The position numbers and the translations under genes are program-made. Below are positions 2 to 42,307 of a stretch of 64,000 nt of DNA, piece after piece (positions within the stretch are counted from its first letter, which is position 1; every line of letters starts with the position of its first letter). The notes beneath the pieces are model-generated. The model had not been told where the DNA came from. It saw only the letters and a list, made by a program, of their open reading frames with translations, and did not search any database. Origin of the DNA: Nostoc sp. 106C (lineage in GTDB: Bacteria > Cyanobacteriota > Cyanobacteriia > Cyanobacteriales > Nostocaceae); the NCBI RefSeq assembly GCF_002154725.1, contig NZ_MTAW01000127.1:1-64000 (forward strand). The letters are read 5' to 3'.

Positions 2-1276
2 TCGGTTTGGAGTGTCAGCTTCTCCCCCGACGGCAAGACAATTGCCTCTGCCAGTGATGACAACACCATCAAACTCTGGAGTCTGGATGGCAAAGAACTC
101 AAAACCTTCAAAGGGCACAGCGATTCGGTTTCTTGGGCCAGCTTCTCCCCCGATGGTAAGACAATAGCTTCTACCGGTCGTGATAAGACAATTAAACTCT
201 GGAATTTGGATGGCAAGGAACTCAAAACCTTCAAAGGGCACAGCGATTGGGTTTGGGGTGTCAGCTTCTCCCCTGATGGGCAGACCATCGCTTCCGCCAG
301 TGCTGACAAGACCATCAAACTCTGGAGTCTGGATGGCAAGGAACTCAAGACCTTTAAAAGGCATAGTGATGGGGTTTCTAGCGTCAGCTTCTCCCCAGAC
401 GGCAAGACGATCACTTCCGCCAGTCGTGACCACACGGTAATTCTCTGGGATTTGGATTTAGATAATCTTCTGATTTTGGGGTGCAATTGGCTGCAAGATT
501 ATTTGCATAATCATCCTGAAACTTTAGCTGAACTACAGCCATGCCAAAACAAGTCTATGCTAATAGCAGCAGCGCCAACTTTAGTTGCCGAAGGTGAGGA
601 GTTAGCCAGTGCAGGTGAATTTGAGAAAGCAGTTATCAAATTCAAACAAGCTAAAGAATGGAACCCTGAATTAGATATTAATCCAGAGACGAAAGCAGAA
701 ACTCTAAACTTGATTTTTCAAGGCAAAGAATTGGCGAAACAGATTGATATTCAGGGTGCAGTTGCTAAGTTCAAAAAAGCACAGCAGCTAACGCCTAACA
801 TCGACCCTGAGCCAGAAACAACAACCTTAGACAATAACCCAGAAGCATTTGCTAGAAAGCTTGCAATCTCAGAATTACTTAGTAAAGGAAAGGAACTAGT
901 AAGCAACGGCGATGTCAAACAAGCTATTTCAGCCTACGCTAACGCTGAAAAACTCGACGCAAAACTCGAAATCTCTGCTGACGATTGGAACAGCCTGTGT
1001 TGGAGGGGTAGCTTGCATGGGTATGCATCTGATGTGATGTTTGCCTGTGAAAAAGCTGTTACCCTTGCACCCACACATGGAGGTATTTTGGATAGCCGTG
1101 GACTTGCTAGGGCGCTAACTGGCGATAGTAAAGGCGCAATTGAAGATTTCCAAGCCTTTATTAAATGGTCTGACAATCCTGAGAGGAAATCACAGCGCCA
1201 AGGTTGGGTTAATGCTTTAAGTGCGGGGAAAAATCCGTTTACAAAAGAAGAGTTGCAGAAGCTACGCCAGCAGTAG
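2..1276 (+). CDS. WD40-repeat protein with TPR-like C-terminus (5' end outside window)
   Basis: The reading frame is open from the first bases, so the N-terminus lies upstream of the window. The visible part starts with about four WD40 blades, each with the pattern [14 protein letters not shown]...TIKLW followed by [14 protein letters not shown]; the nearly identical blades indicate recent internal duplication. After about residue 155 the propeller gives way to helical, TPR-like units (for example [22 protein letters not shown] and [21 protein letters not shown]). WD40 propellers in cyanobacteria are usually C-terminal sensor platforms of STAND ATPases or kinases, but the effector domain cannot be seen here. 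The stop codon TAG at 1274-1276 is shared with the target site and first base of the downstream IS630 element. Function is unknown beyond protein-protein interaction. Confidence 0.85.
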
Positions 1277-1289
1277 TGGACTGTCTAGG

Positions 1290-2018
1290 CTAAAATGTTG
1301 CATTAGGAACACCTGATTCTTGGGGTTCAAAAATCGGATAAAGATGTTTAAGTTTGACACGAGCATCTTCAGTAGTAAAACGCCAAATAACTTTACTAGC
1401 AGTGGAGTTGCGTTCCTGCTGCCAAGCTGCTAACTCCAGAGAAAGTTCTGCCACTGAAGAAATACGTCGCTCTAAACATTGTCGGCTTAAAACACTTAAT
1501 TCCATCTCCGCAACATTGAGCCAACTACCATTACGAGGGGTATAGTGAATCTCCAGTTTTCGAGCTAAACGATGAGCTTCTGGGGCGGGAAAAGCTTCAT
1601 ACAAAGAGGCAATATTGTGAGTGTTCAAGTTATCACAAAGTAATTTGACTTTGTGGGCATGAGGATAGTCTTCATCTAATAACCGACGCACTTCAATAGC
1701 CCAATCTACACGAGTTCGATGGTCACGATTGCTGACTCTTCGCCAACCTCGATTCGGATCGAAGAACATAAATAAAGCTTGGACTCCTTCACGAGTGTAG
1801 TGATAATCTTCTTTAGCATCATGACCTGGTTCGGCTTTAATTGGCTCACAAACATGTCCAGTTAACTGTATAGAAGCTTCATCCATACAGATTAGCGGTT
1901 CCAATTCACTATGTAGTTGACTATAAAGATCCAAAACTACTTCCATTTGGGAAATAAAACGTGCTAAATCCCGTTCTGGGATACAAAACCTTTGTATTTT
2001 CCACGGGCGTAGCTCGTT
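1290..2018 (-). CDS. IS630 transposase, orfB (DDE catalytic part, reached by -1 frameshift)
   Basis: This frame carries the catalytic core: first acidic residue in ICMDEASI, second in LLCDNLNTH and the glutamate in NGSWLNVAEMEL, the DDE pattern of IS630 transposases. The first in-frame ATG is at 1946, but the frame is open and family-like upstream (KNELRPWKIQRFCIPERD, beginning at 2018), so translation by a -1 shift on the A8 run from orfA is more likely than an independent start. Its C-terminus lies 14 bp from the inverted repeat. Confidence 0.8.
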   Translation of the reverse strand, partial: NELRPWKIQRFCIPERDLARFISQMEVVLDLYSQLHSELEPLICMDEASIQLTGHVCEPIKAEPGHDAKEDYHYTREGVQALFMFFDPNRGWRRVSNRDHRTRVDWAIEVRRLLDEDYPHAHKVKLLCDNLNTHNIASLYEAFPAPEAHRLARKLEIHYTPRNGSWLNVAEMELSVLSRQCLERRISSVAELSLELAAWQQERNSTASKVIWRFTTEDARVKLKHLYPIFEPQESGVPNATF

Positions 2019-2467
2019 TTTTTTAATATGCTTCTGACTGTCTCTACGGCAATTTCTGTGATGATATTTCTATTTTTAATTTCTTGAGTTAATAGTCTCA
2101 GACTCCAATGCGCTCTTCCTGTGGGTGGGTCAGAACAACACAGTGCGATGATTCGTGCTTCCGTATGACCATCAATTTTGGCTGGTACTGGTGGACTTTT
2201 TCGTTGACTGCGATTTAGAGCTGGTTGTTCACCTTGCTCCAAAAATCTTTTCCTTATTCTTCCTACTGTATTGCGATGTAAGTTGAGGGCTAAACTGATT
2301 TGTTCATCTGTCCATTTTTTCGTCGCACCCTCACCTTCATCACACATTAATAGCACTTGTGCGTGCAATATTTTTTTGGCTGGGGCATAACCATTACGAC
2401 TTATCTCTTCTAGCTTTCGCCTTTGCTCTGTATTTAAAAGCACTTTGTCTCTACGACCTTTGCCCAT
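1964..2467 (-). CDS. IS630 transposase, orfA (helix-turn-helix part)
   Basis: This frame encodes the N-terminal DNA-binding half of an IS630-type transposase. It has a helix-turn-helix region (ISLALNLHRNTVGRIRKRF, about residues 57-75) and a second winged-helix-like segment around LTQEIKNRNIITEIAVETVRSILKK. ATG 2467 is preferred; a TTG lies directly in front. Read without a shift the frame ends at 1964 with about 17 residues that look unrelated to a transposase. Slippage at the A8 run (2024-2017 on the minus strand) would join it to orfB and give one protein of about 392 residues. Confidence 0.8.
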   Translation of the reverse strand: MGKGRRDKVLLNTEQRRKLEEISRNGYAPAKKILHAQVLLMCDEGEGATKKWTDEQISLALNLHRNTVGRIRKRFLEQGEQPALNRSQRKSPPVPAKIDGHTEARIIALCCSDPPTGRAHWSLRLLTQEIKNRNIITEIAVETVRSILKKTSYARGKYKGFVSQNGI

Positions 2468-2524
2468 CAACTTACCCCAATTCTCTGTCTTTTTTATTGC
2501 ACTATTTTAGCCTAGACAGTCCAG

Positions 2525-2607
2525 TAGGGTGTGTTATGCCGTAGGCTAACGCACCTTGAATCGTTGATGATGCGTCGGTGCGTTGCGCTGCGCGACAACA
2601 CACCCTA
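2525..2607. repeat. TAGGGTGT-ended palindromic repeat (MITE-like)
   Basis: The sequence begins TAGGGTGTGTTATGCCG and ends with ACACCCTA, forming an imperfect inverted repeat of about 83 bp. A second member with the same ends lies at 33277-33351. It directly abuts the IS630 element, whose TA target is the first two bases of this repeat. Short TA-ended repeats like this could be non-autonomous derivatives of IS630-type elements; that origin is inferred. Confidence 0.55.
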
Positions 2608-2643
2608 CATTTACTACATTTACTTTTAAATTTCTCATTTTGA

Positions 2644-3000
2644 GCTTAGATATCGCGCTTGATGATTTCTTTAAATTAGCTACTCATTTTTATATTTTGA
2701 GTAAACAAAAAGGCTTGTAACTTTCTCATTTAGCTGTTTCAAGTAGGCAAAAAGCCATTTCACCTACCCAAAAAGCCATTTCATCTACTCAAAAAGCCAT
2801 TTCACCTACTCATTTTGGTGTTTTCCGCAAGCAAAAAGCCATTTCACCTACTTAAAAAGCCTTATCGCTTACTCATTTTAGTAAATCACGCACTCATTTT
2901 GGTGTTTTCCGCAAGTAAAAAGCCTTATCGCTTACTCATTTCGGTAAATCACGCACTCATTTTGGTGTTTTCCGCAAGTTTTTGGGCTGATTACTTGCTC
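2644..3000. repeat. Array of degenerate 21-bp repeats (17 units)
   Basis: From 2644 to 3000 the sequence divides without gaps into seventeen 21-bp blocks. From 2749 the blocks fall into recurring types: AAAAAGCCATTTCACCTACT(C), AAAAAGCCTTATCGCTTACT(C), ATTTTAGTAAATCACGCACT(C) and ATTTTGGTGTTTTCCGCAAG(T). Three of them form a nearly exact 63-bp higher-order unit that occurs twice (2854-2916 and 2917-2979). The 5' blocks are more decayed. The period equals two DNA turns or seven codons, but stop codons recur inside the units in the frames I examined, so no protein is called. Confidence 0.75.
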
Positions 3001-3055
3001 AAAAAGTGTGATGTCTGACAACACGCTGCTGTGCAGCTACGCTTTCTTGTTTTTT

Positions 3056-3084
3056 GCGATGCCTACGGCGGGCTACGCCTACGC
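3056..3084. repeat. Short GC-rich palindromic repeat (GCGATGCCTACGGCGGGCT family)
   Basis: The core GCGATGCCTACGGCGGGCT (3056-3074), followed by ACGCCTACGC, is identical over 19 bases to the segment at 48066-48084 inside a histidine kinase gene. A diverged relative lies near 10964. This is a dispersed small repeat typical of Nostocales genomes. Confidence 0.6.
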
Positions 3085-3198
3085 ATTTGTTCTCAAATCA
3101 AATTGGATAGTTGAATGTAGACACCCGAAGCGGGTTTCGGTGGGCAATGCCCACCCTACAGATACTCGTTTTTTACTATTAATTACAAATTACGTCTT

Positions 3199-3338
3199 AT
3201 ACCAATTTAATCTGAAGTTGCATATATCTTGATCCCCCTAAATCCCCCTTAAAAAGGGGGACTTTGATTCTAGTTCCCCCCTTTTTAAGGGGGGCTAGGG
3301 GGGATCAAATTCTATGCAAACTCATAAAAAATCGGTAT
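3199..3338. repeat. MITE-like element with ATACCAATTT ends
   Basis: The 140-bp segment starts ATACCAATTTAATCTGAAGT and ends with the imperfect complement, the two arms pairing over about 40 bases with several mismatches. The centre is a strong G/C hairpin (GATCCCCCTAAATCCCCC against GGGGGGCTAGGGGGGATC). It encodes nothing recognisable. A related element is at 27504-27603. Confidence 0.6.
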
Positions 3339-3481
3339 TACTAACTTGTACTCTTGCAAGTCGAAGTATGACGATTTCGTATTAATTGATTCCTGCTCCA
3401 AACTGGGGAATTACTAACAAAAATTTTTGCCTTTAATAATTGACAAGTATAAAATTATACTTTATATTAAGAAATATAAAG

Positions 3482-3694
3482 GCGATCGCCCTTATGTAAC
3501 ATCCAAAAGATAAAGGCGATCGCCCAATCCCGCGAAGAAGAAAGCGATTGCCCTTATGTAACATCCAAAAAATAAAGGCGATCGCCCAATCCCGCGAAGA
3601 AGAAAGCGATCGCCCTTATGTAACATCCAAAAAATAAAGGCGATCGCCCAATCCCGCAAAGAAGAAAGCGATCGCCTTTATGTAACATCCAAAA
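3482..3694. repeat. 62-bp tandem repeat with paired HIP1 sites
   Basis: Units begin at 3482, 3544, 3606 and 3668, an exact 62-bp spacing, giving about 3.4 copies. Each full unit has one GCGATCGC (or GCGATTGC) before CCTTATGTAACATCCAAAA and a second before CCAATCCCGCGAAGAAG. Copies differ at only a few positions. The array stops 15 bp before the start codon of the gene at 3710, so it forms that gene's upstream region. Confidence 0.85.
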
Positions 3695-3709
3695 CGGAGT
3701 ACGAATACC

Positions 3710-3988
3710 ATGATGGCACAATCAGAAGATTCCGCCCAGTCAAAATTAGTACAGTTCTTAGGCGAAGATTCAAATACACCAAAGCCACATCAACCAACTC
3801 AAAACCCGTTTCCCAACAGAAAACCGATAAAGCATCTGCTGATTGGTTCAGCCAAAGCTGTTACCAGTACAATTCACTACTTGCAAGTAGTTGGCTACGC
3901 AGGCGTGGGGGAATGGAGTCCACTGTTACCCACCGATAAACCAGATGAGGTGATGAGTATTTTAATCCGCCAAATTCTTATGCAATAA
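3710..3988 (+). CDS. Small conserved cyanobacterial protein of unknown function
   Basis: This 92-residue protein has a polar, low-complexity N-terminal third and a compact C-terminal part (HLLIGSAKAVTSTIHYLQ and VVGYAGVGEWSPLLP, ending in VMSILIRQILMQ). That C-terminal pattern resembles, from memory, a family of small cyanobacterial proteins; I know no function for it. A GGAG at 3696-3699 fits ATG 3710, with a second ATG directly after. The promoter region consists of the 62-bp tandem array, and a strong hairpin terminator follows, so it looks monocistronic. Confidence 0.6.
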   Translation: MMAQSEDSAQSKLVQFLGEDSNTPKPHQPTQNPFPNRKPIKHLLIGSAKAVTSTIHYLQVVGYAGVGEWSPLLPTDKPDEVMSILIRQILMQ

Positions 3989-31985: not shown

Positions 31986-32885
31986 ATGTATCATCGTTTG
32001 ATATTATCTGCATTAGCACTTTTATTAAGTATGTTTTTAGCTGCTTGTAACACTGCAACCATTCAGCAGCCATTAACAAAAATACCTACTAACACTAGCT
32101 CTCAAGAATTACCAAAACAATCTGCTAAGAGAGTTGTAGCTCTCTCTTCGCTTTCTGGTGATATTATTTATCAACTTGATAAAACAAAGCTAGTAGGTAT
32201 TACTGGCAGCAAATTGTTTAAAGATGACTCAAGATTAACCAATATTCCTCGTGTGAGTGAGGGACAAAGTCCACCTAATTTAGAAAAAATTATCGCCCTG
32301 CAACCAGATTTAGTTATTGGTGCGGAAGGGTTTTCTAATCAACCAATTCAAAAATTGCAAGAGCTAGGTATTCCGACTTTGCTCACGCAGGTTAATAGTT
32401 GGGAATCGCTAGAGAAATTGACTCAAAAACTTGCTGAGTTAATTAATGCCGATCCTCAGCCTTTATTAAACAGCTACAAAAGTTTCTTGGCAAATAAACC
32501 GACTCATAGCCCTTCCACTTTAGTACTGGTTAGTCGCCAACCGATTTTGGCACCAAATAAAAATAGTTGGGCTGGGGATTTACTGACGAAGTTCCAAGCA
32601 AAAAACCTTGTAGCAGAATTACAAGGAAAAAGCCCTATCAATGGGTATGTGACGCTTTCAGCAGAGAAAGTTCTAGAAGCAAATCCAGATGTTTTAATAG
32701 TAGTTAATAATGCCGATCCGCAACTTCTAGAGTCTCTGAAAAAACAAAGTTTTTGGCAGCAACTCAAAGCCACTAAAAATAATCATGTCTATACTTTTGA
32801 CTATTACGGACTTGTGAATCCAGGTAGTATAGATACAATTAAAAAAACTTGTCAGCAACTAGCACAAGCATTATCTGCGCAATAA
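31986..32885 (+). CDS. Periplasmic binding lipoprotein for ferric chelate or cobalamin
   Basis: A 299-residue BtuF/FhuD-like (class III) binding protein. The lipobox is LLSMFLAAC (about residues 13-21). The mature protein has the two-lobe pattern with RVVALSSLSGDIIYQLDKTK, LEKIIALQPDLVIGAEGF, IPTLLTQ and a C-terminal VYTFDYYGLVNPGS. Such proteins deliver iron-siderophore, haem or B12 to an ABC importer; no permease or ATPase is adjacent here. The neighbouring iron genes favour an iron substrate, but that is inference. Confidence 0.82.
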   Translation: MYHRLILSALALLLSMFLAACNTATIQQPLTKIPTNTSSQELPKQSAKRVVALSSLSGDIIYQLDKTKLVGITGSKLFKDDSRLTNIPRVSEGQSPPNLEKIIALQPDLVIGAEGFSNQPIQKLQELGIPTLLTQVNSWESLEKLTQKLAELINADPQPLLNSYKSFLANKPTHSPSTLVLVSRQPILAPNKNSWAGDLLTKFQAKNLVAELQGKSPINGYVTLSAEKVLEANPDVLIVVNNADPQLLESLKKQSFWQQLKATKNNHVYTFDYYGLVNPGSIDTIKKTCQQLAQALSAQ

Positions 32886-33396: not shown

Positions 33397-34365
33397 TTAA
33401 TCTTTTACTGGAGCAATTGGTTTATGTGCAGATTTGATAGTTTTTGCATTTTGAGGAGAACTACCAGTTATACTGCGCAAATAAGTACCTCCGACGGTAA
33501 GCAAAAATGTTAGGTAACCTACTGCTTGTACAAGGTAGAGATTTTCTCTATAGCCAAACAAAGTTTTGAGAATGATACCCGGGAACTGTTCATCAGGTAA
33601 GATTTTAGAAGTATTCCAAACCATTGGGCCCAAAATACAAGAGTGAACTTTAGTAAAGCGCTCGTAATAGAAACAATAGCTTTCTGTAGCACGACTACTA
33701 AGGGCGAGATTAGCTACAGATTCGTCAAAATGTTTCAACGCAGAAACTACCAAACCAGCAACTATCAAAACTAATAAAATGCCCATTACTTGAAAAAATT
33801 GGCGAATATTAATTTTGACACCCCATTTAAATAACAGTACTCCAATGGCAACTGCTGTCATTAAACCAGCAATAGCGCCCAAAGCGGGCATAAATCCTTG
33901 TTGAAAATTAGCAGCAATAAATAGAACAGTTTCAAAACCTTCACGAACAACTGCAACTAAAATTAAGGTAAAAACGCCCCAACCTGCATTTGAATTTTGT
34001 GTTAGCGCTTCCGTTACAGCTCCCTCAACATTAGCTTTCATGAATCTGGCTTGTTTAGTCATCCAGATCAACATCCAGCTGAGCATGATAATTGCTAATA
34101 CGCTGAATATACCTTCCAACATCGGCTCAACTACAGAGGTGTATTGAGGATTAATTGCACCTAATGCTTGAATTACCCAGCTAAAAAGTACGCCTATCAG
34201 CGCACTGACGACAATACCAACACCAACACCAGCATATACCCAAGAGTTAAGTCGAGATTGTTTGCCTTTTTTCAGTAACGCCAGCACAATTCCAACAACA
34301 AGGGCTGCTTCTACTCCTTCTCGGAGTGTAATTACAAAAGTAGGTAAGGCAGTACTAAAATTCAT
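33397..34365 (-). CDS. FTR1-family high-affinity iron permease
   Basis: A 322-residue plasma-membrane permease with seven or so helices. Two REGxE motifs, TLREGVEAALVVG near the N-terminus and AVVREGFETVLF in the middle, are the iron-binding signatures of Ftr1/EfeU transporters. A hydrophilic segment with two cysteines (YCFYYERFTKVHSCILGP) and a C-terminal helix follow. In yeast, Ftr1 works only with a multicopper ferroxidase, and such an oxidase is encoded 3.7 kb upstream on the same strand. It imports iron after oxidation, by family knowledge. Starts at ATG 34365. Confidence 0.9.
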   Translation of the reverse strand: MNFSTALPTFVITLREGVEAALVVGIVLALLKKGKQSRLNSWVYAGVGVGIVVSALIGVLFSWVIQALGAINPQYTSVVEPMLEGIFSVLAIIMLSWMLIWMTKQARFMKANVEGAVTEALTQNSNAGWGVFTLILVAVVREGFETVLFIAANFQQGFMPALGAIAGLMTAVAIGVLLFKWGVKINIRQFFQVMGILLVLIVAGLVVSALKHFDESVANLALSSRATESYCFYYERFTKVHSCILGPMVWNTSKILPDEQFPGIILKTLFGYRENLYLVQAVGYLTFLLTVGGTYLRSITGSSPQNAKTIKSAHKPIAPVKD

Positions 34366-34396
34366 CTTTTGTCCTTTGTTCTTCTCTTACAAAGTT

Positions 34397-34568
34397 GAGG
34401 CAGTCCGGTGGCGGGGTTCCTCCGCTTAAAGGAACTGCCGTCTGTTCGCCGGAAGCCGGCGCTCAAAGCCAGTACTCTCCGAGAAGCCGCCCGGAGGGCG
34501 TCTACGTTCAAGTCGGGAAACCCTTTCGGCAGTTCCTCCTGGGGGAACCCCCAAGATCGGACTGCCTC
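34397..34568. repeat. GC-rich palindromic element with 11-bp inverted ends
   Basis: GAGGCAGTCCG (34397-34407) and CGGACTGCCTC (34558-34568) bound 172 bp that are much richer in G+C than their surroundings. Nested inner stems (GGAACTGCC with GGCAGTTCC) suggest one long hairpin. It lies between the FTR1 and ferritin-like genes of the iron locus. MITE-like; short frames in it look meaningless. Confidence 0.65.
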
Positions 34569-34650
34569 ACCACACGACTGGCTCGACTTTGCGATTTGTC
34601 ATTAGTCATTAGTCATCACTTATTAGCTAATGACTAATGACTATTAACTA

Positions 34651-35085
34651 TTAACTAAAATCGCGTAACATTTTTTTCAGTTCAAGATTATGCATCTCTT
34701 CTTGACCAATCATGCCACGAGCGAACTCTTCTAGATAAATGCTGGCATTGGTGACAGTTTCTAGGAGAGTTTTATACAAATCTAGCGCCTTCTTTTCATG
34801 GGATAAACTTTCTGCCAAGATATCCTTAACTGAGTGTTGATAAGTTTCTTCCATTTGAGCAATTTTCAGGGAAGGATGCCCATCCAAACCAGTGAGAATT
34901 TCTCCTACTTGTTGCGCATGAAGGAGAGATTCACTGGCTTGTGCTTTAAAAAAAGCCACAATTGGTATACGGTTAGGACCAGTCACCATCAGGGAATAAT
35001 GTGTATAGCGCACTACTCCAGCTAATTCAAATTCCATGATGGCGTTTAGTAGGTCAATGGTCTTTTTGTGGTCAAGCTCTTGCAT
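34651..35085 (-). CDS. Ferritin-like (bacterioferritin-type) protein
   Basis: A 144-residue four-helix-bundle protein. Candidate di-iron ligands are in MEFELAGVVRYTHY, SESLLHAQQVGE, SLSHEKKALDLYK and GQEEMHNLELKKML, the E...ExxH rhythm of ferritins and bacterioferritins. It probably stores or buffers iron in the cytosol. Family members differ in haem binding and assembly, which I cannot decide. Its place downstream of the lipoprotein and upstream of the FTR1 gene supports an iron role. Starts at ATG 35085. Confidence 0.8.
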   Translation of the reverse strand: MQELDHKKTIDLLNAIMEFELAGVVRYTHYSLMVTGPNRIPIVAFFKAQASESLLHAQQVGEILTGLDGHPSLKIAQMEETYQHSVKDILAESLSHEKKALDLYKTLLETVTNASIYLEEFARGMIGQEEMHNLELKKMLRDFS

Positions 35086-35259
35086 CAGTTGTTAAGTTAA
35101 ACAAAGGTTACGAATGTAGAGTCATGAGTAAGAAGTTAGGAGTGATACTCTTTTGAAGTGTTAAAAGTTGAGATGGTCTTCACTCTTAGCTCCTAACTAT
35201 TTCCTCACTATTTAATCATTTTAAACTCCTCTCTCTACATCTTTAATGCAGGCAAATTG

Positions 35260-36300
35260 CTATTGCTGTGCTTGGGTGCTGGCTTTGTCAATTACTTGTT
35301 GAGAGTTTTGTTCAATGGTTTTCACTAGCTTGGTGACATCTTCAGGGGTTTTAACTGGCTTGGCTGGTGGGATAGCGGCGGGCCAAACTTTCAACAGGTC
35401 AGCAAAACTCGCTTCAATTGCTTTGTTTGCATCCGGGCTTGTTTGTGCTACTTGGCTAGAAATACTTTTATACAAATCATTCGCGTAGATGACAAAGCCA
35501 CGAGAGTCTTGATATTCAATGGCAGCAGCTATTTTACCATTGGCGATCGCAGCTCCATATTCTGAATTTGCGGCATCTAACAATTCGTTAATTACCTGGA
35601 GCACAAATTCCGGTTTCGAGCGTTGAGATTCTGGTAAAGTGGCGATCGCTCCATCAACAGCTTGCACTGAAGAAGTAAAATTAGTTTTGACTTTGGCATT
35701 CTTGGGATTGGATTTAACTAAATCTTGCAAACTTACCAAAGTTGTTTTAAATTCTTTAACCTTGCGCTCATTCAATTGATCTTCTACATCAACATAAATC
35801 TCCTCAACTGGATGTCCAATATGAGGTTCAGCCTGTTTTGGTTGATTTTGATCCAAAAGTTCTTGAGCTACTAAAAGATGCCCTTTCATTAAGCCCAACT
35901 TGGTCATGTAATCAACATCTTTTGCCTCTCCTGTAAGTACTACTTCCTGAACGCTAACTAAGTCTTTGATTTGGTCAAATTGCTCTTGAGTAATTACCTT
36001 TTTACTCACTAAATCTTCTGGAGCAGCGTAGGGACGGCTAGCTTGAATTTTATTTGATAATGCTGGCACACCCAGCTTGGCTTCAAACTTATCTAACTCC
36101 GACAAAATCGCAGTATTAATATTAATTTTTGCTTTGCTACCGTGGCTATTGTGACTTGCTGCTTCAGTAACTTGAGCAGGAGAGTTAGCAGCCGAAGGTA
36201 AAGGTGAATTATTTGCAGTAGGCGTACCATCACTACAAGAACTTAGAGAAACTATGGCACAAGCAGTAATAGCCAAGCAGATATAGCGTAATTTGATCAT
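35260..36300 (-). CDS. Helix-hairpin-helix lipoprotein in iron locus
   Basis: A 346-residue exported protein. The signal ends in a lipobox (IVSLSSC, about residues 16-22), followed by a Ser/Asn-rich linker. About residues 58-115 form a ComEA-like helix-hairpin-helix module (KININTAILSELDKFEAKLG, YAAPEDLVSKKVITQEQFDQ). The remaining helical domain (LLVAQELLDQNQPKQAEPHI, GHPVEEIYVDVEDQL, KTPEDVTKLVKTIEQ) vaguely recalls EfeO/imelysin proteins, which pair with FTR1-type permeases. A DNA-binding fold outside the cytoplasm of a metal locus is odd; it may instead serve protein binding. Function unknown. Confidence 0.7.
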   Translation of the reverse strand: MIKLRYICLAITACAIVSLSSCSDGTPTANNSPLPSAANSPAQVTEAASHNSHGSKAKININTAILSELDKFEAKLGVPALSNKIQASRPYAAPEDLVSKKVITQEQFDQIKDLVSVQEVVLTGEAKDVDYMTKLGLMKGHLLVAQELLDQNQPKQAEPHIGHPVEEIYVDVEDQLNERKVKEFKTTLVSLQDLVKSNPKNAKVKTNFTSSVQAVDGAIATLPESQRSKPEFVLQVINELLDAANSEYGAAIANGKIAAAIEYQDSRGFVIYANDLYKSISSQVAQTSPDANKAIEASFADLLKVWPAAIPPAKPVKTPEDVTKLVKTIEQNSQQVIDKASTQAQQ

Positions 36301-36608
36301 TTTTGTTCCTAGAGAGTTTGCAAGCAGATAATTTCAAAGAATTCCAACTATTACTAGCAGGTAAAATTGATAGGATTTTTTAGTAGTTACTATTTTCATT
36401 TATCACAAATGATATTTCCTATCAACTAAGTCATAAAAATTTGATAGTAATTTAATAGTTTTTACAACTTTTTCGAGTTGGTACATATCAAAATTTAGAC
36501 AAATTAATTTTTATTCCCAGGTTAAAGCCTGGGAATGCTAACATTAAAAAACAAGAAAAATTAATTAGGCTCCATATCAGCTATCTGTATTGATACTGTA
36601 TGGGGTCT
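36301..36608. promoter_or_regulatory. Spacer with hairpin and paired inverted repeat upstream of the lipoprotein gene
   Basis: This 308-bp spacer splits the minus-strand iron group. ATTCCCAGG (36513-36521) and CCTGGGAAT (36528-36536) form a 9-bp stem that could end the upstream oxidase unit, though no T run follows on the minus strand. TTGATAGGA (36367-36375) and TCCTATCAA (36417-36425) form a second perfect inverted repeat, possibly part of the lipoprotein promoter region. Confidence 0.35.
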
Positions 36609-36803
36609 TTACTTTACAGAATCATTGCTGATTTTGCCGTCTATCTGTAAAGATTTCACATGAAAACCTTGAAACTTAGGCTTTTGACTAACACGAATCA
36701 TTGCTGTTGGGTAGCTGGCAGCTAATAAAGTAAAAACCCCTACCAATATCCAGATATATTTATGCATATCGCGGGAGGAAATTCGACTTGGTTGTTTCTC
36801 CAT
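36609..36803 (-). CDS. Single-helix membrane peptide in iron locus
   Basis: A 64-residue peptide with a basic start (EKQPSRISSRDMHK), one membrane helix (YIWILVGVFTLLAASYPTAM) and a short polar outer part. It lies 25 bp downstream of the membrane-protein gene on the same strand, which supports it being real despite its size and a weak ribosome-binding site. No family recognised. Confidence 0.5.
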   Translation of the reverse strand: MEKQPSRISSRDMHKYIWILVGVFTLLAASYPTAMIRVSQKPKFQGFHVKSLQIDGKISNDSVK

Positions 36804-36828
36804 AACTCAAATTTTTCTTGACTTTTGA

Positions 36829-37302
36829 TTAACTCAACGGTAGATAAGGAAATAGAGGATGCCAACTCATAGCAGTGGCAGCAATAATTAAGGTAGACAT
36901 CCAAAAAAATATTGTTCTGGATGTAATTTTTTTGCTATTCCATAGCACAGAAAGAATAGACCAACTTACAAGCCAGCCCAGTAGCAACATCGTTTCTTTG
37001 CCAGTATAACTGCCAATATTTCCCCATAGTTTACTAGGGTTATGGCTTCCCGGTATCCAACTACCTAGTCCCCAAACTATATTTTCGATATCTTTAGATG
37101 TATCTGATAAATGGTGGGTAACCATCATCGCAAAACATCCAATGCCAACACTGAGCAATGCTGCTGCTGCGGGGCCAGAAACAGTTGGAGGATTATTTGA
37201 ACCTGCGGCTAAAATTCTGGGAAAACCTTTCAATTTTTCCCAAATTCGGGTGTATAAAGGTGGAAATTTTAATTTCTCACTACGATATATTTGTCTACTC
37301 AT
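36829..37302 (-). CDS. Uncharacterised membrane protein A of the oxidase group
   Basis: A 157-residue protein with a soluble N-terminus, then about three membrane helices (AAALLSVGIGCFAMMVTHHL, ETMLLLGWLVSWSILSVLW and TIFFWMSTLIIAATAMSW). Histidines sit at helix ends (MVTHHLSD, SWHPLFPYL), possible metal or haem ligands, but this is speculation. It is 52 bp downstream of the membrane protein gene at 37355 and close to the small peptide gene, so it belongs to the multicopper-oxidase unit. No family is recognised. Confidence 0.65.
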   Translation of the reverse strand: MSRQIYRSEKLKFPPLYTRIWEKLKGFPRILAAGSNNPPTVSGPAAAALLSVGIGCFAMMVTHHLSDTSKDIENIVWGLGSWIPGSHNPSKLWGNIGSYTGKETMLLLGWLVSWSILSVLWNSKKITSRTIFFWMSTLIIAATAMSWHPLFPYLPLS

Positions 37303-37354
37303 TTAATCATCCGCAATGTGAATTTTTTGTCATCCAAGTTTTTGTATTTACATA

Positions 37355-37978
37355 TTACAAAGCATGGATTTTGGCAACACCAATTCCTGTGACTAACCCA
37401 CCCATAGCAAAAAACATCATCGCCATCAAAGCCACACAAGTAGCTGTTAGAATCGAGCGATTTTGCTTCTCCAAAATTGAGTCACCATACTTCCATAAAA
37501 TCCAAGTACAAGCTACGCCTAATGGCAAGGTAAACAATACGCTAAATTCGTGATATTCCATAAGTACGTATTGAGCCAAAGGCGAGTTTTCTTTTAGCCA
37601 AGCTCTAGCACCACCAACTTCTGCACCTGCACGGTAGCGCATATATGCTAAGTTGCCAGTGGCAATCCCCAAAAAGGCGATCGCACTTGACCAAAATGTT
37701 AAAGTACGCATCTGAGGCAAAATTTGACCGACTCCCCGCAATAAGGGAAAGGCTAAATGCCCGGTATATACAGTAACTACTGTGGCAAGTAATGCGCCAA
37801 AGCCATGTATTGTTCCTAGCCATCGCTGCCAAGGACTAGGATGCAATAGATTAATGAAGGGTAAAAATAAAAACATTCCCGCTGACAAAATGCTTAATCC
37901 ATAAACAGCCACCTTTGCGATATCAAACTGTCTGGGAAAAGGGCTGGAAACCGAATCAACCTGTGAATCTACCGCCAT
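37355..37978 (-). CDS. Uncharacterised membrane protein B of the oxidase group
   Basis: A 207-residue protein with about five membrane helices. Start ATG 37978 (AVDSQVDSVSSPFP) is preferred to an in-frame TTG 18 bases earlier. Conserved-looking polar residues inside or next to helices are histidines in TIHGFGALLATVV, VYTGHLAFPLLRG and LMEYHEFSVLF, a spacing compatible with b-type haem ligation, as in small cytochrome b-like membrane proteins. The family is not recognised. It lies 76 bp downstream of the multicopper oxidase. Confidence 0.65.
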   Translation of the reverse strand: MAVDSQVDSVSSPFPRQFDIAKVAVYGLSILSAGMFLFLPFINLLHPSPWQRWLGTIHGFGALLATVVTVYTGHLAFPLLRGVGQILPQMRTLTFWSSAIAFLGIATGNLAYMRYRAGAEVGGARAWLKENSPLAQYVLMEYHEFSVLFTLPLGVACTWILWKYGDSILEKQNRSILTATCVALMAMMFFAMGGLVTGIGVAKIHAL

Positions 37979-38054
37979 AACAAAACTACCAAGCAATTGA
38001 AAATTGAAAATTCAGAGTCTCATCACAAATGACAAATGGCCCTTGATCCATAAC

Positions 38055-39050
38055 TCATGAATTCATGACTTCAAATACACCCATGCAACCGTTCTCTGCG
38101 ATCGCATCTTGATGGGGATGAAACATATACTTACCTGGATAGCGAAAAGCAAATTCCAAGATGTGTCTTTCTGCTACACCCATCGTGATTACATCGGTTT
38201 TCTCGCTAGGAGTCAAAGTCATCCCTGTGCGATAGACATTAAAGAAATTGGCATGAAGGTGAAATGTCACTGCCGGATCGTATTCAATGATGTTAAGGAC
38301 ATACAGCCGAATTAACTGATCTTTGTAAATTCGGATGGGATTGTCCATGTAGTGGTGAGGCAGTCCATTGAAAGCGTAATATTCATTGTGGCTATCGTCA
38401 TTTACGTCATACCCAGCCATCACTAGTACGATCTCATCAGCTGGCGGACGGGGAGTTGGCGGATCGATGATAAACATCCCGTATAGCCCCTTGGCAATGT
38501 GACGAGTAACGGGTTCAATGTGGCAGTGATACAAATGAACGCCGTAAGGTTCAGCATCAAATTCATAAATTGTGGCAGTACCGTTACTGACTGGGCGAAT
38601 ACCATCCATGTCTGATGAATGAATCCCATGAAAATGTAAAGAGTGGGAATGTCCTGCATTATTGAGAAATAGTATCCGCACTCGTTCGCCCTGTTTGACC
38701 CTGAGTGTCGGCCCTGGTATATGACCGTTTAAATCCCAGATGTTGTAAGAGACAGCACTATTGAGCTGAATTACAGAAGTACCCGCAGTTAACCGAAATT
38801 CTCGGATAGTGCGTCCATTTTCTTGCTTTAGCGTCCCATAATCGAAATTTCTTAGCATCTTCATGGGTTGAGCCACGCCTTCAGGTGCTGCAATTTCGAG
38901 ATCTGGCACTTTGACTATTGACTTACTTTTGGCATTTGCCATGTGCCAAAGTGCTGCCACTCCTGTCACACCAGTACTACATAGACCCAGCTTCAGCAGT
39001 TGACGACGGCTCCAAAATGTTTCTTTCCCCAAAGCTAAGTTGTTGGGCAT
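38055..39050 (-). CDS. Tat-exported two-domain multicopper oxidase (candidate ferroxidase)
   Basis: A 331-residue periplasmic copper oxidase. A twin-arginine signal (SRRQLLKLG, about residues 14-22) precedes two cupredoxin domains. Copper-ligand motifs are HSHSLHFHGIHSSD, LYHCHIEPVTRHIAKGLYGM and, in domain 2, TFHLHANFF and MFHPHQDAI. This is the size of two-domain laccase/nitrite-reductase-like oxidases, not the usual three-domain laccases. With FTR1 nearby, a role as ferroxidase is the best inference, but nitrite or phenol oxidation cannot be excluded. First gene of a minus-strand unit; a palindrome lies 35 bp upstream. Confidence 0.87.
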   Translation of the reverse strand: MPNNLALGKETFWSRRQLLKLGLCSTGVTGVAALWHMANAKSKSIVKVPDLEIAAPEGVAQPMKMLRNFDYGTLKQENGRTIREFRLTAGTSVIQLNSAVSYNIWDLNGHIPGPTLRVKQGERVRILFLNNAGHSHSLHFHGIHSSDMDGIRPVSNGTATIYEFDAEPYGVHLYHCHIEPVTRHIAKGLYGMFIIDPPTPRPPADEIVLVMAGYDVNDDSHNEYYAFNGLPHHYMDNPIRIYKDQLIRLYVLNIIEYDPAVTFHLHANFFNVYRTGMTLTPSEKTDVITMGVAERHILEFAFRYPGKYMFHPHQDAIAENGCMGVFEVMNS

Positions 39051-39101: not shown

Positions 39102-39439
39102 TTACTCTTGTGTATATTAGAGGACTTAGGAATTATTGTCAATAATCCTCAAATATTTTCCAATAGCTAATATGAGACGTTAATCAAGTTAATTCGCTAC
39201 AGCAAACTAGAAAAACGACCTCAAATTATCTCTTATTTATTGACTTACGTAATTATTTTTACTGATTTGTAAGTCAGATATTTTACTAATAAATCTTCTT
39301 ATTTTATATAGATTCCTGATACCGATGTTTTTTAGCTGTTGACGCTTCTTTCCTGTAAATATTTTAGTTACGTTACTAAATCAGTAAATTATATTGAATA
39401 TTCTGCTATCAAGAAAAATTTTATTTGTAAAGTTTAAAT

Positions 39440-39919: not shown

Positions 39920-40843
39920 ATGCATATTCCTGATGGATTTGTTTCTGTACCAGTGGCAGGGGCTACGGGTCTAGCGAGTGCGGCTGCACTCGTAATTGCT
40001 TTAAGGCGATCGCAAGCAGCTTTTGGAATTCGTCGCGCTCCAGTACTGGGTTTAACTACAGCCTTTATTTTTGCTGCTCAGATGATTAATTTTCCAGTGG
40101 CCGGGGGCACCAGTGGACACTTATTAGGAGGAACCTTAGCAGCAGTTATTTTAGGTAGCCCTTGGGCAGGAACATTGTGCATCGCTACAGTATTAATTAT
40201 TCAAGCTGTGCTATTTGCCGATGGTGGAATCACAGCTTTAGGAGCAAATATTTTCAACATGGCAGTTATTGGTGTTTGGGTAGGCTGGGGCTTAACACAT
40301 ACATTGCAAAGGTTATTTGGTGGATCGAGAGGGCGCTTACCCCTAGCGGCTGGTATTGCCGCAGGTGTGAGTGTAGTAGTAGCAGCAGTAGCTTGTGCCA
40401 TTGAGTTAGCGCTTTCAAGAACAGCGCCAGCAGGCATAGTTTTACCAGCAATGACTGGTACTCATATCCTGATTGGTATTGGTGAAGGACTAATTACTGG
40501 AGGCGTGTTGACGTACCTCGCTAGAGAAAGACCTGATTTATTACCAGGGGAACAACACCAATTTCGTGGTTGGTTAGTACCTATTGTCAGCATTGTTTTA
40601 GTGGCTGGGGTACTCTCACTGTTTGCCTCAGCTTGGCCTGATGGCTTAGAAAGAGTTGCCGAAAACTTAGGGTTTATCCACTTAGCCGACAAAGTGCGAG
40701 TGATTGTCCCAACGCCCTTAGCTGATTACAGTATTCCGGGTTTAGGAACAATTGGCACCAGTATCGCTGGGCTTGTAGGAGCTGCGGTTTGCTTTGCTGT
40801 CGCTTTTGGGATAGCCAAGGTGGTGAAACCGAATAATGCTTAA
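39920..40843 (+). CDS. cbiM: Cobalt/nickel ECF transporter substrate subunit CbiM with PDGLE domain
   Basis: A 307-residue membrane protein. The N-terminal MHIPDGF is the metal-binding start typical of CbiM/NikM, followed by QMINFPVAGGTSGHLLGG and VLFADGGITALGANIFNMA. From about residue 210 a second part contains ASAWPDGLERVAENLGF, the PDGLE (CbiN/NikN-like) domain, so CbiM and its accessory subunit are fused. It binds Co2+ or Ni2+ for B12, hydrogenase or urease; the metal is not distinguishable by motif. The start must be ATG 39920, since the methionine and His2 are functional. It overlaps cbiQ by 8 bp. Confidence 0.92.
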   Translation: MHIPDGFVSVPVAGATGLASAAALVIALRRSQAAFGIRRAPVLGLTTAFIFAAQMINFPVAGGTSGHLLGGTLAAVILGSPWAGTLCIATVLIIQAVLFADGGITALGANIFNMAVIGVWVGWGLTHTLQRLFGGSRGRLPLAAGIAAGVSVVVAAVACAIELALSRTAPAGIVLPAMTGTHILIGIGEGLITGGVLTYLARERPDLLPGEQHQFRGWLVPIVSIVLVAGVLSLFASAWPDGLERVAENLGFIHLADKVRVIVPTPLADYSIPGLGTIGTSIAGLVGAAVCFAVAFGIAKVVKPNNA

Positions 40844-41501
40844 AATTTCCTTACCTTTACGCTTGCAACTTTCCCTAGTGATTGTCATCGGGGCAGCTTT
40901 GTTAAAGCATCATGCTTGGTATAACTTGGGTACATACGGAGCGATCGCAATTTTGTGGGCTTGGGTGTTACGTGTACGCCTTCCCCAGCTAGGAAAATTA
41001 CTCGGCACTGAATTAATCTTTCTATCTTTGCTGGCTTTGCCCTTGGGATGGGAGCGCGCTAGTTTTTTGCTAGTTCGTTCTCTCATCTGCCTGATCGTTA
41101 TGAATAGTTTTTTGTTAACCTTACCAGCTCATAGCTTCGGCATCGCACTCAAAAGCTTAACCCTACCATTACCGTTAAAAGAAAATTTGCTCTTAGCTGG
41201 ACAATACTTGGAAATTTTGCTGTCAGAAGTCAAAAGAATGCAGCGTAGCGCTCAATTACGAGGTTTAAATGGTTCGGCTGGCTGGCTGCGCTACGCCAGT
41301 GCTGCCATGATTGGAGCCTTGTATCTCCGTAGCCTCGATAGGGCAGAGCGCGTTTACACCGCGATGGTAACTCGTGGTTACAACGGGCAGTTACCCATAG
41401 ACTCGACATTAAGACTAAAAGAGCGTTTTGTGCTGTTAGCAGCTTGTGCGATCGTTGCTTGTTTAACCATCAGTTCCTACCAGTTAACCGTTAACAGTTA
41501 A
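40836..41501 (+). CDS. cbiQ: ECF transporter T component CbiQ
   Basis: A 221-residue transmembrane coupling protein linking CbiM to the ATPase. It has several helices in the N-terminal half (LQLSLVIVIGAALL, AIAILWAWVL, LLALPLGW) and the cytoplasmic coupling helices with MQRSAQLRGL and AERVYTAMVTRGY, the family motif. ATG 40836 overlaps the end of cbiM. The spacer to cbiO is 41 bp. Confidence 0.9.
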   Translation: MLKISLPLRLQLSLVIVIGAALLKHHAWYNLGTYGAIAILWAWVLRVRLPQLGKLLGTELIFLSLLALPLGWERASFLLVRSLICLIVMNSFLLTLPAHSFGIALKSLTLPLPLKENLLLAGQYLEILLSEVKRMQRSAQLRGLNGSAGWLRYASAAMIGALYLRSLDRAERVYTAMVTRGYNGQLPIDSTLRLKERFVLLAACAIVACLTISSYQLTVNS

Positions 41502-41542
41502 CACTTAGTAGAAGTGCAGTTGTAAATTTTGAGTTGTGAATC

Positions 41543-42307
41543 TTGGAATCTTTAACTTCTAATCCCAAATCTTCAACCCGTAACCCCCAGGCTGCTGTAG
41601 TAGAGGTGCAAAATCTGGTATATGCTTATGCCAACTCCGAAGCAGTATTAAAAGACATTTCTTTTAAATTGAATCCAGGCGATCGCGTGGCGTTGATGGG
41701 TGCAACTGGTTCTGGCAAAAGCACCTTACTAGAAAATCTCATTGGCTTAAAACAACCACAAAGCGGGAAAATTTGGATTAATAACATTCCCGTAGAACAC
41801 AAAACACTATCTCAAGTACGTCGTCAAATTGGTTTTAGCTTCCAAGATGCCAACGATCAGTTATTTATGCCGACTATCTTAGAAGATGTGACCTTTGGGC
41901 CCCGCAATTATGGTGTACCACCAGCCATAGCAATTGATCGAGCACGCCAGTTATTAGCTGATTTTGGGCTTGAAGCCTATGCCAACCGTTCTGCTCATCA
42001 ACTCTCTGGAGGACAAAGACGCTTGGCTGCTTTAGCAGCAATCTTAGCCTTAGAGCCTACTATTTTGATTTTAGATGAGCCAACTAACGGTCTAGATCCT
42101 GCATGGCGGCGTCACTTGGCGCAGGTGTTATTAAATTTGCCAGTGCAAGTGATGTTAATTGCCTCCCATGACCTCAATTGGTTGGGTAAAGTGACTCAAC
42201 GTGCTTTAGTGCTGGCTGGTGGCCGCATTCCCATAGATAAAGACATTCAACCACTTTTACAAGATGGCAATACTTTAGATGAGTTGGGTTTGCCAGTAGA
42301 TTGGTAA
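41543..42307 (+). CDS. cbiO: ECF transporter ATPase CbiO
   Basis: A 254-residue ABC ATPase energising the Co/Ni importer. Walker A is GATGSGKST (about 53-61), the Q-loop FSFQDANDQL, the signature LSGGQRR, Walker B ILILDEPTNGLDPA and the H-loop ASHDLNW. No ATG lies before the core, so the start is TTG 41543 or GTG 41606 (directly in front of the first strand). The gene completes cbiMQO. Confidence 0.92.
   Translation: MESLTSNPKSSTRNPQAAVVEVQNLVYAYANSEAVLKDISFKLNPGDRVALMGATGSGKSTLLENLIGLKQPQSGKIWINNIPVEHKTLSQVRRQIGFSFQDANDQLFMPTILEDVTFGPRNYGVPPAIAIDRARQLLADFGLEAYANRSAHQLSGGQRRLAALAAILALEPTILILDEPTNGLDPAWRRHLAQVLLNLPVQVMLIASHDLNWLGKVTQRALVLAGGRIPIDKDIQPLLQDGNTLDELGLPVDW

Follow-up and report, generated by a model that had tools for sequence, protein, structure and literature searches.

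A 64,000-nucleotide stretch of the Nostoc sp. 106C genome (contig NZ_MTAW01000127.1, positions 1 to 64,000; hereafter the window) carries a group of seven minus-strand genes at positions 33397-39050, in an assembly of 8.66 Mb and 240 contigs. All seven open reading frames (ORFs) that a preliminary description placed there were recovered (Table 1): a multicopper oxidase with a twin-arginine translocation (Tat) signal, two membrane proteins, a one-helix peptide, a lipoprotein, a short ferritin-like protein, and an FTR1 iron permease. The core of the group is four genes, encoding oxidase, lipoprotein, ferritin, and FTR1, while the remaining three, TM213, TM157, and S64, form a separable cassette.

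Table 1. Genes and predicted control elements of the iron permease cluster, in window positions
Feature	Positions	Strand	Basis or remark
Two-domain multicopper oxidase, Tat signal, 331 aa	38055..39050	-	Pfam, nearest structure 3gdc, aligned ligands, motif counts
TM213, membrane protein, 207 aa, cassette gene 1	37355..37978	-	ORF call, relatives' alignment, distribution
TM157, membrane protein, 157 aa, cassette gene 2	36829..37302	-	Alignment
S64, one-helix peptide, 64 aa, cassette gene 3	36609..36803	-	Alignment
Lipoprotein, 346 aa	35260..36300	-	Lipobox, model, alignment, motif counts
Short ferritin-like protein, Bfr-like, 144 aa	34651..35085	-	Pfam, alignment, literature, synteny
FTR1 iron permease, 322 aa, two RExxE	33397..34365	-	Pfam, motif counts
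Predicted sigma-70 promoter, TTGACA-17-TAATAT	39114..39142	-	Ahead of oxidase, conserved in genus
Inverted repeat ATTATTG-A-CAATAAT (7-1-7), ATTATTGACAATAAT	39132..39146	-	Over -35 box; sole exact genome copy
Palindrome TTGCAAA-N3-TTTGCAA, TTGCAAANNNTTTGCAA	39085..39101	-	Just after -10 box; sole exact genome copy

The lipoprotein alignment was used for one scan of a species-genome collection, which found 335 relatives. Our named loci are the best 80 of these, all with cyanobacterial names and leaning toward close relatives, and each gene was represented by its best match within 7 kb of the lipoprotein gene. FTR1 was present at all 80, the ferritin at 78, and the oxidase at 70, with oxidase, lipoprotein, ferritin, and FTR1 in one order and on one strand. 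At five of the ten loci without an oxidase, the lipoprotein gene starts no more than 3.5 kb from the locus end. The nearest named relative by lipoprotein, among the matches listed, was Nostoc sp. T09 (95%). A second set of 98 relatives, searched with cutoffs of E ≤ 1e-20 for the oxidase and E ≤ 1e-10 for FTR1, yielded the oxidase in 66 genomes and FTR1 in 89. From the list of 65 full oxidase genes we excluded second partial matches in G070 and G236 and a fragment in G121; the FTR1 list excludes fragments in G210, matches at or below 37% identity, and large FTR1s. On these lists, 48 of the 65 oxidase genes had FTR1 within 7 kb; widening the distance to 20 kb raised this to 53, and in 51 of these the two genes share a strand. 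By chance, two single-copy genes in a genome of ~6.5 Mb would fall within 7 kb of each other in only ~0.2% of genomes, and the grouping is thus far above chance. Among the 12 oxidase genes with no FTR1 nearby, those of G240, G253, and G116 come from genomes with none in the FTR1 list used, and the G048 contig ends past the ferritin. The co-occurrence that the preliminary description anticipated, with a Tat two-domain oxidase, lipoprotein, and ferritin tied to FTR1, is therefore borne out in both sets. By distribution, the group resolves into an oxidase-lipoprotein pair, a ferritin-FTR1 pair, and the three-gene membrane cassette.

The oxidase matched the Pfam families Cu-oxidase_2 (2.4e-27) and Cu-oxidase_3 (8.4e-22). 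Its type-1 copper ligands lie in domain 1 (C176 and H184), its trinuclear ligand set is full, and the His/Cys ligand set is invariant across 13 aligned homologs. Motifs were counted only in homologs aligned over 250 (FTR1), 300 (oxidase), or 200 (lipoprotein) residues; among oxidases, HFHG, HCH, and FHPHQD were kept in all 61, the twin-arginine pattern in 60, and H[LI]HAN[FM] in 59. The nearest solved structure is 3gdc (1.8e-86), presumably from Arthrobacter, followed by 7rab, and the protein scored far under the NCBIfam cutoffs for copper-resistance oxidase and for nitrite reductase. Two-domain enzymes of type C are those with type-1 copper ligands in domain 1. The position of these ligands here fits the class reported in a survey of laccase-like enzymes, which assigns all eight two-domain enzymes found in cyanobacteria to type C. 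We infer that the oxidase probably acts on Fe(II).

The lipoprotein has a lipobox cysteine (Cys22), a helix-hairpin-helix (HHH) domain at residues 56-118, and a helical domain at residues 126-345. Searches against Pfam returned only HHH_3 (1.6e-06, residues 56-115), with no match to M75. Judged by alignment, the conserved part of the protein is the helical domain with its HxxHPxEE motif, and the HHH domain is optional, being absent from some members (L152 to L154 and L158). Invariant positions in the helical domain are H141, H160xxH163xxE166E167, E247, and Y263-Q-D265-S-R267; the stretches GHLxxAxEL, PHxGHPxEExY, and YQDSRGF are kept in all 15 aligned lipoproteins, and GHP[VI]EE in all 59 homologs counted. 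The predicted model is confident and all-helical past about residue 126, with a mean predicted local distance difference test (pLDDT) score of 80.7. A role as an HHH protein of DNA uptake, like ComEA, was ruled out, since members without the HHH domain keep the helical one. The HHH part matched a photosystem II chain in Foldseek (E of 0.6, probability 1.00), which we take to be PsbU. When phylum-wide distribution was sampled in 194 genomes, the family was found in 41, all of them listed as of the same class or closer. The copies at loci L160, L161, and L172 carry an extra C-terminal domain that matches the N-terminal domain of large FTR1s, where it is presumably periplasmic. At L172 (positions 746-3939), a large FTR1 (502 aa) with this N-terminal helical domain lies divergent from a lipoprotein carrying the same domain type, an arrangement that would represent a second type of FTR1-lipoprotein pair and a separate tie of the lipoprotein family to FTR1.

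FTR1 matched Pfam PF03239 above its cutoff (2e-55) and is the single FTR1 match found in the host genome; two RExxE motifs were present in 83 of 84 homologs. It scored 195.7 bits against the EfeU equivalog NF041756, whose cutoff is 255, and also fell under the cutoff of TIGR00145. The spacer at 34395-34650, between the ferritin and FTR1 genes, bears repeats and self-complementary parts, has similar pieces in 32 fetched loci, and makes this gap longer than in several relatives. The ferritin (Pfam Ferritin, 3.6e-19) is a probable ortholog of NpDps5 (Npun_F6212) of Nostoc punctiforme, an assignment that rests on the intact oxidase-lipoprotein-ferritin-FTR1 order in N. punctiforme NIES-2108 and on published descriptions. 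NpDps5 is reported to be heterocyst specific and coexpressed with an iron permease; its metal site is described in PMC6675082 as resembling that of bacterioferritin (Bfr). Two observations speak against a purely heterocyst role for the cluster: similar clusters are present in a number of families elsewhere in the order, and oxidase upstream regions showed no enrichment of NtcA boxes or DIF motifs (each in 2 of 69, versus 4.2 and 1.1 in shuffles). For this and other upstream counts, 69 of the 80 loci had a usable oxidase upstream region, and the control was a plain base shuffle in 20 rounds.

In keeping with the earlier proposal that the EfeUOB partners of the permease are replaced here, the host genome has no match to EfeO/imelysin (PF09375) or to DyP, the EfeB family (PF04261). 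Among the 98 relatives, imelysin was found in 8 and DyP in 3, one barely above the cutoff. Imelysin was rarer in genomes with the oxidase (2 of 66, with G121 counted as oxidase bearing) than in those without (6 of 32; Fisher P = 0.014, uncorrected for relatedness). Both genomes having imelysin and oxidase together, G195 and G227, hold an EfeU-EfeO-EfeB locus, with EfeB named from PF04261, and G195, a member of the window's genus, carries an intact oxidase cluster (L051) plus the separate EfeUOB. Canonical EfeU-EfeO-EfeB loci (L166, 4422-7811; L167, 603-3985) are found in two genomes of the window's family and are rare in the group. At L122, ferritin-FTR1 and an imelysin gene are transcribed divergently, and next after imelysin comes a two-CxxCH protein, which we take to be of the DUF1111 type; oxidase and lipoprotein are absent. 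Altogether, the oxidase pair and the EfeO/EfeB-type pair look like alternatives for one permease family, though the statistics are modest. At a further locus (L106, 4982-10475), genes for an OprB-type porin (by Pfam), lipoprotein, ferritin, oxidase, and FTR1 directly follow one another, which suggests an outer membrane entry step.

Since the promoter scan as a whole was no richer than shuffled sequence (17 sites versus 19.0), the case for the predicted promoter ahead of the oxidase rests on conservation. Allowing up to two mismatches, the 7-1-7 repeat was found in 65 and the palindrome in 66 of the 69 oxidase upstream regions (0.3 and 0.1 in shuffles), counts that are raised by shared descent, as these are orthologous promoters. 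The same motifs occurred in 1 and 2 of 80 lipoprotein upstream regions, respectively, and in none of 78 ferritin or 80 FTR1 upstream regions. An exact palindrome was present in 17 of 39 genomes: directly before the oxidase in 10 (the window's genus, G101, and G068) and elsewhere in the other 7 and at second sites in G194 and G195. From its position after the -10 box, it is a putative operator or 5′ untranslated region hairpin. We rejected a Fur-type regulon built on the 7-1-7 repeat, as its 10 one-mismatch sites elsewhere fall inside ORFs in 7 cases and between them in 3, with no iron genes recognized there by eye. Fur-family proteins have been discussed in connection with a 7-1-7 geometry, but the FurA consensus given in that work differs from this repeat.

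The preliminary description had counted TM213, TM157, and S64 as new components of the importer. Their distribution shows that they are not constant members of the group: TM213 was found at only 11 of the 80 named loci, and the cassette is separable from the cluster. The TM213 ORF opens at a TTG at 37996, giving 213 aa, while relatives favor an ATG at 37978 and thus 207 aa. No Pfam family scored above its cutoff for the 213-, 157-, or 64-aa protein. TM213 has invariant residues H64, H80, and H149, and TM157 has invariant H64 and H148 along with the stretches GSYxGKETxLLxxWLxSW and WHPLFPYLP. TM213 was detected in 13 of the 194 genomes, one by a weak match (G016); in the remaining 12 it lies inside the FTR1 cluster in 8 (broken in G099) and away from it in G048, G064, G103, and G097, whose contig ends just upstream. 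Six of the eight genomes in the window's genus have the whole cassette; the nearest relative (G199) keeps only TM213 of it, and the G195 locus has none of it. In G191, a second copy of the cassette adjoins an oxidase (L077). Six of 15 TM157 members matched Cytochrom_C_asm (best E of 0.001, 19.2 bits against a cutoff of 29.9), and profile comparison with CcsA by hhalign gave a probability of 25 over 38 columns. Three members matched MASE1 (best E of 2e-4), and other families score equally, so the weak CcsA-like stretch may be a chance resemblance. TM213 gave a probability of 0.5 against the CcsA profile, and its model (pLDDT of 70.9) had no useful structural match. That the cassette is a membrane redox or heme unit is our guess. 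At L080 (8465-12070), L081 (9118-12726), and L106 (199-3789), the cassette is followed by a repeat protein of ~650 aa, identified as RTX by Pfam at L081 and judged by eye at the other two; at L106 the oxidase group lies a few kilobases away. The one-helix peptide is extended at L083 (9051-9794) and L099 (6603-7292) by a long C-terminal part belonging to no Pfam family.

Gene neighborhoods were compared at 60 fetched loci plus 40 more. On the FTR1 side of the window, a plus-strand periplasmic binding protein gene (Peripla_BP_2, 31986-32885) is convergent with FTR1; across the 60 loci it recurs in 22 places. On the oxidase side, plus-strand genes at 39920-42307 lead away from the oxidase promoter: a CbiM gene with a CbiN-like end, followed by genes for a membrane protein and an ATP-binding cassette (ABC) ATPase that look like the remainder of a nickel/cobalt energy-coupling factor importer. 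Many of the 60 loci likewise have a CbiM-like gene upstream of the oxidase.

We consider it probable that the cluster encodes an oxidase-dependent ferric-iron importer acting through FTR1. Periplasmic Fe(II) would be oxidized by the Tat-exported two-domain copper oxidase, whose complete copper sites suggest that O2 is consumed. The ferric product would be bound and passed on by the helical lipoprotein through its HxxHxxEE and YQDSR clusters, in the place of EfeO; this role is suggested by where the lipoprotein is encoded, by the residues it keeps invariant, and by the ties of its family to both kinds of FTR1. FTR1, with its two RExxE motifs, would move the iron into the cytoplasm as expected of its family, where the Bfr/NpDps5-like ferritin would store or detoxify it, as family knowledge and the published NpDps5 work suggest. 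TM213-TM157-S64 would serve as an accessory that is not always present, perhaps handling heme or acting in membrane redox reactions, and transcription would begin, at least partly, at the conserved oxidase promoter with its two inverted repeats. A more elaborate version seems doubtful to us: a complete oxidase-permease importer of N2-fixing cyanobacteria, heterocyst linked through its NpDps5-like ferritin, in which the lipoprotein replaces EfeO, electrons pass between the optional membrane redox cassette and the oxidase or the cassette reduces iron again, and the locus has its own regulator. If it were true, a single locus would tie the iron loading of N2-fixing cells to copper and to O2 consumption.

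Several observations weigh against an oxidase-dependent importer as outlined. The lipoprotein had been suggested as a stand-in for EfeO; its link to FTR1 holds, while the relevant part is the helical domain rather than the optional HHH domain, and homology of that domain to EfeO is unproven. Foldseek found no match to the lipoprotein model at E ≤ 0.001, with EfeO, EfeM, and Algp7 recurring at E values of 0.8 to 3 alongside unrelated helical bundles (e.g., vinculin and catenin), and profile comparison with M75 gave a probability of 34 over 50 columns, outside the GxHxxE motif. In place of the GxHxxE of imelysin/M75, the lipoprotein has HxxHPxEE, in which a Gly immediately precedes the second His. 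The EfeM site is described as an HXXE motif plus an acidic GEEDRY loop, and comparison with HxxHxxEE and YQDSR is invited, although profile comparison does not establish homology. The domain shared with large FTR1s was matched among six sequences, without composition correction or a low-complexity filter, at E < 1e-6 in 10 of 15 pairs (best, 3e-12) and more weakly or not at all in 5, two of which gave nothing. Two-domain oxidases can be laccases, and Protein Data Bank matches beyond 3gdc and 7rab were mostly copper nitrite reductases. By eye, no iron genes were recognized at the one-mismatch copies of the 7-1-7 repeat.

The pairs also occur apart, as would be expected if two independent modules shared one neighborhood, one of them (oxidase and lipoprotein) guarding the periplasm against Fe(II) or reactive oxygen and the other (FTR1 and ferritin) importing and storing iron oxidized by O2 itself, as proposed for Synechocystis cFTR1. 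Oxidase-lipoprotein pairs without FTR1 in the fetched stretch were seen at L152 to L154, L158, L160, and L161 (three of these on short contigs), ferritin-FTR1 pairs without the oxidase at, e.g., L124, L125, L128 to L130, L132 to L134, L140, and L148, and the oxidase stands alone in G227 (L054). Neighbors of the oxidase-lipoprotein pairs away from FTR1 were read from sequence as PKHD/PiuC hydroxylase, bacterioferritins, and FeoB/FeoC; the pairs at L152 to L154 are close to a short protein that we take to resemble a PiuC/PKHD-type hydroxylase. In the window, the gaps before the lipoprotein, ferritin, and FTR1 genes (308, 174, and 285 bp) may leave room for internal promoters. For cyanobacteria, reoxidation of iron by oxygen is described in a review with reference to Xu et al. 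2016. We nevertheless regard two independent modules as unlikely, given that order and strand are fixed at 70 of 80 named loci and that the lipoprotein family is tied to FTR1 with no adjacent oxidase at L172. More unlikely still is an oxidase acting mainly on another substrate, such as Cu(I), Mn(II), or phenolics, within a general metal-stress locus. The flanking nickel/cobalt CbiM and its recurrence upstream of the oxidase would fit such a locus, as would a neighbor at L161 that we read as a UPF0016-type manganese exporter, and the survey cited above catalogs cyanobacterial two-domain oxidases as laccase-like. However, CbiM lies on the opposite strand across an 869-bp gap, the oxidase falls far below the copper-resistance and nitrite reductase cutoffs, and its constant neighbors are ferritin and FTR1. 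As for the cassette, there is a real chance, somewhat short of even, that it is an unrelated insertion (e.g., for heme or cytochrome assembly) that has repeatedly landed in the locus. The four genomes with TM213 off the cluster and the below-cutoff CcsA-like stretch of TM157 favor this, whereas the 8 genomes of 12 that hold it within the FTR1 cluster (once in broken form) and the second copy beside an oxidase in G191 argue against it.

A review credits oxygen with producing the ferric iron that FTR1 uses in cyanobacteria. An oxidase-dependent importer would offer a specific candidate oxidase for this step, one found widely in Nostoc and its relatives and closely matched by a homolog in N. punctiforme, a species open to mutant making. 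If the importer operates as proposed, these cells would need copper and O2 for iron uptake. It would also add a new conserved lipoprotein family as a likely stand-in for EfeO and join the NpDps5 ferritin to an importer. In the literature searched (mostly nonsubscription papers), we found no account connecting the oxidase and lipoprotein with FTR1 in cyanobacteria; the ferritin-permease link is already in print for NpDps5.

Among known systems, yeast Fet3p-Ftr1p likewise combines an FTR1 permease bearing RExxE with a multicopper oxidase, encoded adjacently in our case, and Fet3p has a membrane anchor. The cluster differs in its operon-like arrangement, its added lipoprotein and ferritin, and its two-domain Tat oxidase, Fet3p being described as a three-domain enzyme. 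EfeUOB and EfeUOM share the plan of an FTR1-family permease with a secreted oxidoreductase and a secreted helical protein, whereas the Nostoc cluster has no DyP or M75/imelysin match and its FTR1 falls under the EfeU and TIGR00145 cutoffs; canonical EfeUOB loci exist apart from the oxidase cluster family in G195 and G227. FtrABCD of Brucella, which has P19, small cupredoxin, and ferredoxin parts, also uses an FTR1-type permease thought to require Fe(II) oxidation; none of the seven proteins had a Pfam match to the P19 or FtrD ferredoxin parts. Its ferrous oxidase is called unknown in the published account, with FtrA and FtrB as candidates. Synechocystis cFTR1 (slr0964) is likewise a cyanobacterial FTR1 iron permease, and it is not known to have a named oxidase partner; according to the review, it uses iron reoxidized by oxygen. 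Our ferritin shares with NpDps5 its Bfr-like character, and NpDps5 is reportedly coexpressed with an iron permease, while the best solved relative of the oxidase, 3gdc, is a two-domain enzyme as well. Set beside these systems, the cluster is best read as a case of FTR1 transport that depends on an oxidase, here a two-domain enzyme with a Tat signal, and that includes a lipoprotein of no classified family.

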